From assembly GCF_900109035.1 (NCBI RefSeq), contig NZ_FNYD01000002.1:186001-250000 (forward strand): 64,000 nt of DNA. Reading direction: 5' to 3'. Below, in pieces: positions 14,013 through 18,185 of this stretch (the first letter of the stretch is position 1; every line of letters starts with the position of its first letter). This stretch comes from Cribrihabitans marinus (GTDB lineage Bacteria > Pseudomonadota > Alphaproteobacteria > Rhodobacterales > Rhodobacteraceae). The notes beneath the pieces are model-generated. The model did no database searches. It was given only the letters and a program-made list of their open reading frames with translations, and had not been told where the DNA came from. A program made the translations under genes and the position numbers.

Positions 14013-14816
14013 ATGGACGGCATGACACCACCGGGCGAACGCCGCTTCGGACAGGTCAACTGGATGGGCCTCTACACGCTGGCCCAGCGCGAGACGCTGC
14101 GGTTCCTGGTGGTCTGGACCCAGACCCTGCTGGCGCCGCTGGTGACGGCGGGCCTGTTCCTGCTGATCTTCTCGATTGCCATCGGCCCCACACGGGGCGA
14201 CGTGATGGGCGTCGATTTCCTGACCTTCCTGGCCCCCGGCATCCTGATGATGACGGTGATCCAGAACGCCTTTGCCAACACCTCCTCTTCGGTGGTGATC
14301 GCCAAGGTGCAGGGCAATATCGTCGACACGCTGATGCCGCCGCTCTCGGCCGCCGAGATCCTGCTGGGCTATCTGGCCGGCGGGGTCGCGCGGGGGCTCA
14401 TGGTGGCGCTGGCGATTGCCGCGGCAATGGCGCTGGGGCTGGGGATCGTGCCGCAGCACCCTGCTCTTGCCCTGGTCTTCGTCATCCTGGGCGGCGCCTT
14501 TATGGGCGCGGTGGGGCTGGTCGCGGGGATCTTCGCCAACAAGTTCGACCAGATGGCGGCGATCACGAATTTCATCGTCACGCCGCTGGCCTTCCTGTCG
14601 GGCACGTTCTACTCGGTCGAGGCCTTGCCGCCGGTTCTGAACCGCATCACCCATGTCAACCCGGTCTTCTACCTGATCGACGGTCTGCGCCACGGCATGA
14701 TCGGGGTCTCGGACAGCTCGCCCTGGCTGGGCCTGGCTGTCTGCACCTTCGCCACCGCGGCGGTCTGCGCGCTGGCCTGGGAGATGCTGCGGCGCGGCTA
14801 CCGGCTCAAGGCCTGA
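14013..14816 (+). CDS. ABC-2 type transporter permease
   Basis: This 267-residue membrane protein has six likely membrane segments. It carries the ABC-2 pattern [22 protein letters not shown] and a C-terminal [16 protein letters not shown] motif, as in YadH and NodJ-type permeases. The substrate is unknown, and no ATPase gene lies beside it. A GGAGA site precedes the ATG at 14013; a second ATG three codons later is also possible. Its last 19 bp overlap the convergent EamA gene. Confidence 0.85.
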
Positions 14817-15709
14817 GGCGGCATCGGCCGGCGTCCCTGACGCGCCTCGCGCCAGGCCAGCAGCAATGCACCGGCAAGGATGATGCCGGCGCCGGTCAGG
14901 CTGATCGCGTCCGGCACCACGCCGAAGGCGCCGAAATCGTAGAGTGTGGCGAAGATCAGCGTGGCATAGCTGAACGGCGCCACGAAGGAGGCATCGGCGC
15001 GCGCCATGCCGTTCACGAAACAGGCCTGCGCGCAGGCCATCAACAGGCCAACTCCGGCCAGCGCCGCCCACTGCTCCTGTGTCGGCGTCTGCCAGACGGC
15101 CAGAACGGCCAGGCTGGAAATGACGACGCCCAGGCCATTGTTGACCAGCAGGATCTGCAACGGGCCCTCGCGGCCCGACAGTTTCTTGATGAAGATCAGT
15201 TCCATCCCCATGACACAGGCCGCCGCCAGCGCCAGCATTGCCGCGGGCTGGAAGCTGGCCGGGGTCGGTCTCAGCAGGATCAGCGCGCCGCTCAGCGCGA
15301 TGGCGGCGGCCAGCCAGCGCACCGGCCCGACCCGCTCGCCCAGAAGCGGGATCGCCAGAAGCATCGCGATCACCGGGTTCAGGAAGGTGATCGCGGTGGC
15401 GTCGGTCATCGGGATATGCGCCACCGAGGCGAACATCAGCGTCACACCGCCCCAGCCGAAGGCGGTGCGGCCCATGTGCAGGCCCCAATGCGGGCGGGAC
15501 AGTCGCGGGCGCATCGCCGCCACGGTGGCGGTGATCGCGAGGAAGGCAAAGACGAAGCGACCGTGGCTGACCTGCATCGGATGCAACGCCGGACCCAGTG
15601 CCTCGGTGCCCAGAGCCTTGGCCAGGAGCGTCGTGGCGGCGATGAAGGCGGTCGCGGCCAGGATGAACCCCGCGGCCAGAACCGGGTTTTGCGCTTGCGG
15701 CTTGAACAT
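14798..15709 (-). CDS. EamA/DMT family transporter
   Basis: This 303-residue inner-membrane protein has ten likely membrane segments in two EamA repeats. The first is around [20 protein letters not shown], and the second is around [20 protein letters not shown]. Family members export or import metabolites such as amino acids. The substrate cannot be read from sequence. It is divergent from the argD leader region, and its 3' end overlaps the ABC-2 permease. Confidence 0.85.
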
Positions 15710-15842
15710 GCGGCCAAGCGGTGCCGGATCGCCGCATCCTTGGCAAGCGATTTCGCAGACAGGCGGCGCCGCACCCGTATTGGCGATCCGGGCTGCTCAT
15801 TTGGGCTTTGCAAGCGGCAAATCCTCCGCTATGGAACCGCCC

Positions 15843-15887
15843 ATGATCAAACCCGCGCATATCTTTGCCCGCCGACGTCGCCGCTGA
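15843..15887 (+). CDS. Candidate arginine-rich leader peptide of argD-argF
   Basis: This short frame reads [14 protein letters not shown] and then TGA, with five consecutive arginine codons (CGC CGA CGT CGC CGC) just before the stop. It ends 119 bp upstream of argD and points the same way. A run of codons for the end-product amino acid directly before the stop is the hallmark of ribosome-mediated attenuation leaders. A GGA lies seven bases before the ATG, a weak ribosome site. An in-frame ATG at 15831 would add four residues. No transcript or peptide evidence is available, so this is an inference from sequence. Confidence 0.6.
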
Positions 15888-15961
15888 CGCGCGCCGCCTC
15901 GCCGTTTGATCCCGGTGCCCGGCTCTGGGTCCACACCTCGCACATCGTTGACGAAACGCGC

Positions 15962-15981
15962 CCTGTGAGGCACTCACAAGG
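15962..15981 (+). promoter_or_regulatory. Stem-loop in the argD leader
   Basis: TGTGAG and CTCACA pair around a GCA loop, extended by CC and GG with one bulged A. It lies between the arginine-rich leader frame and the argD ribosome site (AAAAGGAT at about 15992-16000). It has no following T run, so it is not a classical terminator. It could be an attenuator element or a site affecting argD translation. Confidence 0.4.
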
Positions 15982-16006
15982 CTTACCGCCCGAAAAGGAT
16001 GATCCG

Positions 16007-17182
16007 ATGATCCCGTCCGTTCTGCCCACCTATAACCGTGCACCGCTCAGCTTCGAACGGGGCGAGGGAAGCTGGCTGATCGAGGCGGACGGGCGACGCT
16101 TTCTTGATCTCGGCGCGGGCATCGCGGTGAACGCGCTGGGCCATGCCCACCCGGCGCTGGTGCAAGCGCTGACCGATCAGGCCGGGGCGCTCTGGCACGT
16201 CTCCAACCTCTACCAGATCCCGCAGCAGCAGGCCTTGGCCGACAGGCTGGTCGAACACAGCTTTGCCGACACGGTGTTTTTCACCAATTCCGGCACCGAG
16301 GCCTGCGAACTGGCGGTCAAGATGGCGCGCAAGCACTTCTTCGACAAGGGACAGCCCGAGCGGGTCGAGATCCTCACCTATGACGGGGCCTTCCACGGCC
16401 GCTCTTCGGCCGGCATCGCCGCCGCCGGGTCCGAGAAGATGACCCGGGGCTTCGGCCCGACCCTGCCGGGCTTCGTGCATCTGACCTGGGCCGATCACGA
16501 CGCCACAGCGGCCGCGATCACCGAGCGCACGGCGGCGATCCTGATCGAGCCGGTGCAGGGCGAAGGCGGCATCCGGGTGCTGCCCGACCAGTGCCTCAAG
16601 GGCTTGCGCGACCTCTGCGACCAGCATGGCATCCTGCTGATCCTGGACGAAGTGCAATGCGGTGTCGGCCGCACCGGGCGCCTTTTCGCCCATGAATGGG
16701 CAGGCGTGACCCCCGACATCATGATGGTCGCCAAGGGCATCGGCGGCGGTTTCCCGCTGGGCGCGGTGCTGGCCACCGAGGCCGCCGCCGCCGGCATGAC
16801 CGCGGGCACCCATGGCTCGACCTATGGCGGCAACCCGCTGGGCTGCGCGGTGGGCTGTGCGGTGATCGACCACGTGGCCGATCCGGCGTTCCTGGCCGAG
16901 GTGAACCGCAAGGCAGGCCTCCTGCGCCAGAAACTGGAGGGGCTGGTCGGCGCGCATCCGGACATCTTCGAAGAGGTGCGCGGCACTGGCCTGATGCTCG
17001 GTCTCAAATGCAAGCCGGCCAACACGGATGTTGTCTCTGCGGGCTATGCCAACCAGCTCATCACCGTGCCCGCCGCCGACAACGTGATCCGCCTTCTGCC
17101 GCCGCTCACCATCACCGAGGACGACATCGCCGAGGCGCTGGACCGTCTCGACCGGACAGCCCGGCAGGTCAAGGCGGCCTGA
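16007..17182 (+). CDS. argD: Acetylornithine aminotransferase
   Basis: This 391-residue class III PLP aminotransferase carries [17 protein letters not shown] (PLP phosphate loop), [24 protein letters not shown] (cofactor Asp) and [13 protein letters not shown], where the Lys forms the Schiff base. It converts N-acetylglutamate semialdehyde to N-acetylornithine in arginine synthesis and may also act in lysine synthesis. The start is the ATG at 16007, with AAGGAT upstream. argF follows 76 bp later in the same direction. An arginine-codon leader frame lies upstream. Confidence 0.95.
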
Positions 17183-17258: not shown

Positions 17259-18185
17259 ATGAATCATTTTCTCGACATCCACAAGACCGACGCCGGCGCG
17301 CTCCGGACGATGATCGACCAGGCCGCGGCCATGAAACAGGCCCGCCGGGACCGCCCCAAGGGCGCACCGGACGACACGCAGCCGCTTGCCGGCCACATGG
17401 TGGCGCTGATCTTCGAGAAGCCCTCGACCCGCACCCGCGTCAGCTTCGACGTGGGTGTGCGGCAGATGGGCGGGCAGACCATGGTTCTGTCGGGCAGCGA
17501 CATGCAACTGGGACACGGCGAGACCATCGCCGACACCGCCCGCGTGCTCAGCCGCTATGTCGACCTGATCATGATCCGCACCTTCGACGAGGCGGTGCTG
17601 ACCGAAATGGCCGAATATGCCGACGTGCCGGTGATCAACGGGCTGACCGACCGGACCCATCCCTGCCAGATCATGGCCGACGTGCTGACCTATGAAGAGC
17701 ATCGCGGACCGATTGCCGGCAAGAAGGTGGTCTGGACCGGTGACGGCAACAATGTCTGTTCCTCCTTCCTGCATGCCGCCGGCCAGTTCGGGTTCGACAT
17801 GACCTTCACCGGCCCGGCGCAGTTCGACCCCGAGGAGGAATTCGTGGGCCTGGCCCGCTCGAAAGGCTCCAGAGTGGTGATCGAGCGCGATGCGGCCCGC
17901 GCGGTCGAGGGTGCCGATCTGGTGGTGGCCGACACCTGGGTGTCGATGCATGACGCGCAATCGGCCAAGGAACGCCGCCACAACATGCTGCGCCCCTACC
18001 AGGTCAATGCCGAGCTGATGGCCCATGCCAAGCCAGACGCGCTGTTCATGCACTGCCTGCCCGCACATCGCGAGGAGGAGGCGACATCCGAGGTCATGGA
18101 CGGCCCCAACTCGGTGATCTTCGACGAGGCCGAAAACCGCCTGCACGCGCAGAAGGCGATCATGCGCTGGTGCCTGGGCGTCTGA
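17259..18185 (+). CDS. argF: Ornithine carbamoyltransferase
   Basis: This 308-residue enzyme makes citrulline from ornithine and carbamoyl phosphate. The carbamoyl-phosphate loop is [15 protein letters not shown] (STRT), HPCQ supplies further ligands (about residues 133-136), and [12 protein letters not shown] carries the ornithine-site Cys. The length is normal. The start at 17259 (MNHFLDIH) was chosen because the 16-codon in-frame extension upstream falls in repeat-like sequence. It is probably cotranscribed with argD. Confidence 0.96.

Follow-up and report, generated by a model that had tools for sequence, protein, structure and literature searches.

A probable arginine-responsive leader-peptide attenuator upstream of argD-argF in Rhodobacteraceae

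How arginine synthesis is matched to arginine supply in Alphaproteobacteria is the question raised by the argD-argF locus of Cribrihabitans marinus. The repressor ArgR was found in none of the 61 alphaproteobacterial genomes searched, and the control search was positive in 9 of 14 control genomes. Published regulon work also places ArgR in Gammaproteobacteria and reports that the remaining classes of proteobacteria examined lack it (PMC5343134). Therefore, the control of arginine synthesis in these bacteria is in need of an explanation. The window, that is, the whole 64,000-nucleotide stretch of DNA that was analysed (contig NZ_FNYD01000002.1, positions 186,001 to 250,000), carries argD and argF, whose identities were assigned with the NCBIfam curated families. 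An initial annotation of this DNA had pointed to a 14-codon frame with five Arg codons, 119 bp before argD and in the same direction, as a candidate leader peptide, and the position and codons of this upstream open reading frame (uORF) were verified. The features concerned are the following.

15843..15887, + strand: uORF with an ATG start, 14 codons plus TGA, read from the sequence and kept in relatives (see below)
15870..15884, + strand: Arg run CGC CGA CGT CGC CGC, the presumed stall site, kept while the remaining peptide diverges
15995..15999, + strand: Shine-Dalgarno sequence AAGGA of argD, read from the sequence and at the same position in relatives
16007..17182, + strand: argD, acetylornithine transaminase (NF002325, 626.6 bits; TIGR00707, 440.9 bits; both above cut-off)
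17259..18185, + strand: argF, ornithine carbamoyltransferase (TIGR00658, 368.1 bits; above cut-off)

The stop codon of the uORF occupies 15885-15887, and 119 nt separate it from the argD start at 16007. Five Arg codons in a row within an ATG frame of 7-21 codons arose in 0.1% of dinucleotide shuffles of the argD upstream region of the window. A DMT/EamA-type transporter gene (14798-15709, - strand) lies between an ABC-2-like permease gene, which ends at 14816, and argD; the reading frame that terminates immediately 5' of argD is permease-like in several relatives.

The argD upstream regions of 178 Rhodobacteraceae loci were gathered, and uORFs were counted on the 167 non-identical ones, a uORF being taken as any frame that starts with ATG, spans 7-21 codons, includes two or more neighbouring Arg codons and ends 90-180 nt before argD. 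Such an Arg-run uORF was present in 153 of the 167 loci, compared to 5.9 in dinucleotide shuffles and 18 on the reverse strand, so that its occurrence before argD is far from chance. No uORF was detectable in about 8% of the Rhodobacteraceae loci, and it was absent from the sampled alphaproteobacterial genomes of other families and from a few basal Rhodobacteraceae. Across the family, the uORFs have approximately 8-19 codons and lie approximately 95-175 nt 5' of argD. The peptides are divergent (MIKRAHITTTRRRRFFA, MTTLAHIPAIRRRRTRA, MTQIVTIKSTLRRRR, MTKGHPIRRA and others), with the Arg run retained. In 153 loci, a CGACG motif occurs with an ATG close by; the closest ATG upstream shares the reading frame of CGACG in 139 of them, and the indels within the uORF are multiples of three (alignment A1). 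The conservation check proposed in the initial annotation thus came out in favour of the frame: a short Arg-run frame is kept family-wide, with synonymous changes in the run, in-frame indels and a constant place relative to argD.

The choice of codons in the run is strongly biased. The first run codon is CGA in 149 of 155 uORFs, and CGA accounts for 54% of the Arg codons of the run, compared to 16% of the other Arg codons of these uORFs and 7% of those in argD; the most frequent run is CGA CGC CGA CGC. CGA is usually slow to decode, being read by an inosine-containing tRNA-Arg. As far as sequence comparison can tell, the enrichment of CGA fits selection on the decoding of the run. Nucleotide-level selection may add to the codon bias at the later run codons, because part of the run pairs in a leader RNA stem (stem B, below); the first CGA codon is outside this stem in the alignment used.

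The sequence just 5' of the uORF has the layout of a promoter, here called P1.

15808..15813, + strand: -35-like element TTGCAA of P1, 16 nt before the -10 element, with a TT-rich -35 position conserved in relatives
15830..15835, + strand: -10-like element TATGGA of P1, with a geometry shared with relatives

A sigma-70 consensus scan gave no match because it demanded T at the last -10 position, and the geometry of the relatives was used instead. The distance from the end of the -10 element to the uORF ATG is 6-8 nt in 146 of 161 loci, the first two bases of the -10 element are TA in 143 of 161 loci, and the base before the ATG is usually C. This geometry implies a predicted transcript start at or adjoining the uORF ATG, and the uORF is therefore probably leaderless; no Shine-Dalgarno sequence of the uORF was found.

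The initial annotation had also supposed that the leader RNA folds, and conserved folding with covariation was indeed found in the relatives. Three stems were defined.

15845..15852, + strand: 5' arm of stem A, GATCAAAC, uORF codons 1-4, pairing with 15904-15911 in the predicted fold of the window
15904..15911, + strand: 3' arm of stem A, GTTTGATC, beginning 17 nt past the uORF stop, in the predicted fold of the window
15873..15901, + strand: stem B region, the end of the Arg run with the RNA just past the stop, weakly defined in the window
15914..15937, + strand: stem C hairpin, with covariation in relatives and in the predicted fold of the window

In 54 aligned sequences, 81% of the cells of stems A, B and C were paired, compared to 28-43% in slid controls, and 12 pairs were changed on both sides. 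Changes on both sides occurred in 8 of the 9 pairs of stem A and in 4 of the 5 pairs of stem C. Stem B had 84% of its cells paired in alignment A1, yet none of its pairs showed changes on both sides. The covariation score of the stems was 0.188 versus 0.105, and none of 500 shuffles scored as high. Variants of stem A in the relatives include GAACAAAAGC/GCTTTTGTTC, TGACAACG/CGTTGTCA, GATTAAACGC/GTGTTTAATC and ATGACGCAA/TTGCGTCAT. A swap test on 140 sequences gave coevolving pairing for stem C (p 2e-6), stem B (p 1.4e-3) and stem A (p ~1e-3). Judged by the alignments, all three stems are conserved and two of them covary clearly; the strongest is stem A, which joins the uORF start with the RNA just past its stop. 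Over the family as a whole, the segment from the uORF to a TTGAC element further downstream has a better fold than shuffled sequences (mean z -2.1), and the full leader of the window is no more stable than its shuffles (z +1.03). The strongest matches of a covariance model lie upstream of argD, and beyond the Rhodobacteraceae no match stronger than E 1e-4 was found in a search of 240 genomes; the weaker matches outside the family were taken collectively as chance.

These data bear on two readings in which the frame is not primarily a sensor for argD. In the first, the locus is an ordinary promoter region, and the Arg frame is an untranslated by-product of conserved RNA or DNA, namely CGACG repeats in a GC-rich structured leader. 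The region is GC-rich and the CGACG repeats do contribute to stem B; nevertheless, the retention of the frame (139 of 153), the indels by threes, the fixed distance of the ATG from the promoter, the chance expectation of 5.9 in 167 and the place of the first CGA codon beyond stem B in the alignment make this reading highly improbable. In the second, the uORF is a small gene acting in trans, through an Arg-rich peptide or an attenuation sRNA as with rnTrpL/peTrpL, and the control of argD is secondary. The leaderless trpL of Sinorhizobium meliloti does yield a functional peptide and an sRNA (PMC10117765). However, the argD uORF peptide diverges strongly save for the Arg run, while its place relative to argD and the RNA pairing are retained, and a trans role seems very unlikely.

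Downstream of stem C lie a TTGAC element and a hairpin, here called D.

15948..15952, + strand: TTGAC, the -35 element of P2, an ancestral promoter of argD, kept in 171 of 178 family loci; the corresponding -10 position reads CACTCA at 15971-15976
15960..15982, + strand: hairpin D, GCC-C-TGTGAG-GCA-CTCACA-A-GGC, with coevolving arms and a stability excess in uORF-bearing genomes

The hairpin TGTGAG-GCA-CTCACA of the initial annotation is real and recurs in relatives; it begins at 15964 rather than 15962 (15964-15978), and a GCC/GGC clamp extends it to 15960-15982. The remark that no T run follows it is true of the window (TTACCGCC). The arms of D coevolve (p 1.3e-7, swap test, 140 sequences). 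Relative to shuffles, D had a mean z of -1.43 in uORF-bearing genomes (n=149), compared to -0.24 in outgroups (n=25; p 2e-5) and -0.52 in ten Rhodobacteraceae without the uORF. In other alphaproteobacterial families, TTGAC is often the -35 element of a good TTGACA-17-GATACT promoter that is followed by a T-rich start region. In Rhodobacteraceae, TTGAC lies 52-88 nt from argD (171 of 178 family loci), the P2 -10 position is now CACYCA, and the spacer, the -10 and the start region fold as hairpin D. Since the stability excess of D is confined mainly to uORF-bearing genomes, D seems to have been built, along with the uORF, from the old promoter. The invariance of TTGAC would be explained most simply by a second promoter that still works, and TTGAC may still act as a promoter that bypasses the uORF. 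Several genomes of the other families (e.g., L248, L264, L266 and L269) have a terminator-like hairpin between the TTGACA-17-GATACT promoter and argD, and a different leader control of argD may exist there.

A T-rich tail follows D in many relatives and is absent in the window; T is enriched after D in the relatives (3.1 versus 1.9 T per 8 nt, p 2e-16). This tail was rejected as proof of a terminator, as outgroups without the uORF show the same T-rich start region after a consensus promoter. It is weak evidence for a terminator because it is partly inherited from the start region of the ancestral promoter.

Arginine sensing by ribosome slowing is the likeliest function of the uORF because of its codons, its place before argD-argF and the absence of ArgR. 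We are confident, from the sequence features taken together, that the uORF would sense arginine through codon-dependent slowing of the ribosome, and the argD-argF leader is probably an arginine-responsive uORF (leader-peptide) attenuator. As for the output, we lean, if only slightly, towards transcription termination. In the proposed mechanism, RNA from P1 would begin at or next to the AUG of the leaderless 14-codon uORF. When charged tRNA-Arg is plentiful, the ribosome would complete the uORF, stem A would pair, stems B and C would form, and most RNA polymerases would stop before argD around hairpin D, at a weak intrinsic terminator or with the aid of Rho. When arginine is short, ribosomes would stall on the CGA-rich run, keeping stems A and B open and the uORF covered, and transcription would read through into argD-argF. 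As stem A would hide the uORF start in the finished RNA, arginine would be sensed mainly by the first ribosome, the one coupled to RNA polymerase. Termination at or before D fits the lineage-specific evolution and the tail of D in the genomes compared.

The way in which stalling could be passed on to D was searched for in the alignments. No coevolving antiterminator helix was detected, since all pairings of upstream regions with D had p > 0.05 in the swap test, from which a helix of invariant bases would escape. Neither an antiterminator nor sequestration of the ribosome-binding site by the freed arm of stem A was supported by the swap test, partition functions or example folds, and hairpin D persisted in the predicted stalled state with a small shift. 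The initial annotation had proposed that stalled ribosomes change the folding of the leader. Such a change is plausible, given that stems A and B would be opened by a stalled ribosome; however, the search turned up no coevolving alternative pairing able to switch D or to block the ribosome site. The leader thus has a short uORF rich in codons for the end product, on the same strand as and ahead of the biosynthesis genes, and a uORF segment paired with downstream leader RNA (stem A), and it has no detected helix mutually exclusive with D. Since the search for such a helix was negative, we do not place the leader in the classical antiterminator type and regard it as a variant of uORF-mediated control outside that type.

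The same uORF sensor could act through Rho alone, a mode proposed for the DUF1127 uORF of S. meliloti, with the C-rich uORF and linker forming a split Rho site and D serving as a pause site only. The Rho site would be exposed once ribosomes pass and release; ribosomes that stall or queue would cover it, and without translation of the uORF stem A would mask it. In its last 15 nt, the linker that precedes TTGAC has 39.7% C and 9.1% G, a C-rich and G-poor composition often seen in Rho sites, and the uORF and linker contain more C than G. Rho alone would need no antiterminator helix, which matches the negative helix search, and the masking of the uORF start by stem A has a counterpart in the report on the DUF1127 uORF (PMC12218461). 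However, base composition is weak evidence for Rho, and D is a coevolving hairpin that stands out most in uORF-bearing genomes and has a T-rich tail, which goes beyond what a Rho pause needs. We regard termination by Rho alone as possible but less likely than not.

Rather less probable is an output of the same sensor at the level of mRNA stability or argD translation, in which the stems, including stem A, would shield or expose the mRNA to ribonucleases or alter access to the ribosome site. The predicted 5' end lies no more than about 3 nt from the beginning of stem A, and stems at the 5' terminus can make mRNAs more stable. In speF, the arginine leader orf34 works partly via RNase G (PMC6386406). 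With respect to translation, the sole coevolution with the argD ribosome site was a marginal signal at the uORF start (p 0.034, uncorrected over 55 pairs), and the predicted accessibility of the ribosome site was unchanged (0.43 free versus 0.44 stalled). Among the outputs, control of access to the argD ribosome site has the least support from the modelling.

Rfam 15 gave no plausible match in the window, nor among nine argD leaders searched with an E limit of 0.5. The initial annotation knew of no described arginine attenuator of this type. In the open-licence literature searched, no report was found of such an attenuator for an operon of arginine biosynthesis, in Alphaproteobacteria in particular; PMC8632094 numbers further candidate motifs, and its motif list may hold an argD entry. 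Related systems do exist, as the speF leader orf34 senses arginine with two consecutive Arg codons and cysS has a predicted Cys-codon uORF. In the trp, his and leu attenuators and in trpL/rnTrpL, an antiterminator competes with an intrinsic terminator, each excluding the other. The argD leader, in which no antiterminator was detected, differs in this respect, although it shares with the classical trp, his and leu attenuators end-product codons in a short uORF before biosynthesis genes, and with S. meliloti trpL a uORF of 14 codons with end-product codons before biosynthesis genes, leaderless in trpL (PMC10117765) and probably so in argD. The Salmonella leader orf34 (DUF2618) resembles it in its consecutive Arg codons; in orf34, arginine governs ribosome pausing, as proposed for the argD leader, and Rho-dependent termination takes part, as it may at argD. 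However, orf34 has 34 codons, with two Arg codons, at positions 12 and 13, within a conserved peptide, and controls ornithine decarboxylase in gammaproteobacteria (PMC6386406). The argD uORF has no conserved peptide of the HIRRT type, its peptide diverging save for the Arg run, and the gene that follows is not speF. Moreover, Arg-to-Arg codon swaps preserved regulation by orf34 (PMC6386406), whereas the argD uORF strongly prefers CGA.

The uORFC-8-2 motif before cysS, a predicted ribosome-mediated attenuator of Rhodobacterales, is similar in its bacterial order, its short uORF with tandem cognate codons and its flanking stems (PMC8632094), and the cysS uORFs of the genomes examined lie close behind promoter-like sequence, as the argD uORF does. 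It differs in having Cys codons before a tRNA synthetase gene instead of Arg codons before a biosynthesis operon, and in its published model a clear U run stands at the end (PMC8632094), a feature that the argD leader of the window lacks. The C. marinus genome itself has a Cys-codon uORF (MNRVIRIIICCIPC) approximately 100 nt before cysS and behind promoter-like sequence, which resembles uORFC-8-2; in some relatives, the cysS uORF is without tandem Cys codons. The DUF1127 uORF of S. meliloti is likewise alphaproteobacterial, with RNA masking the uORF start when untranslated and termination between uORF and gene, but it has a Shine-Dalgarno sequence, no Arg-run sensor has been shown for it, and it responds to tetracycline (PMC12218461). 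The mycobacterial leaderless polycysteine uORFs have a run of a single amino acid and are reported to regulate operons of that amino acid (Canestrari 2020), as proposed for the argD uORF, and differ in being actinobacterial and in the amino acid, cysteine.

We tentatively offer the following scenario, which we consider possible but less likely than not. In ArgR-less Rhodobacteraceae, a leaderless uORF would have arisen as a new arginine sensor, and the old TTGACA-17-GATACT argD promoter would have been rebuilt as its output hairpin. No antiterminator helix would take part: read-through past the former promoter would depend directly on whether ribosomes occupy the uORF and whether the 5'-terminal stem masks the uORF start, and the CGA codons would be tuned so that tRNA-Arg decodes them slowly.

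A codon-based, family-wide sensor before argD-argF would be a concrete and testable answer to how arginine synthesis is matched to supply without ArgR. Alphaproteobacteria are abundant in the sea and in soil, and their control of arginine without the usual repressor could be explained by the uORF. An arginine biosynthesis operon would thereby join the list of pathways controlled by uORFs, and the locus would offer a natural test case of why one rare codon, CGA, persists at a sensing site.
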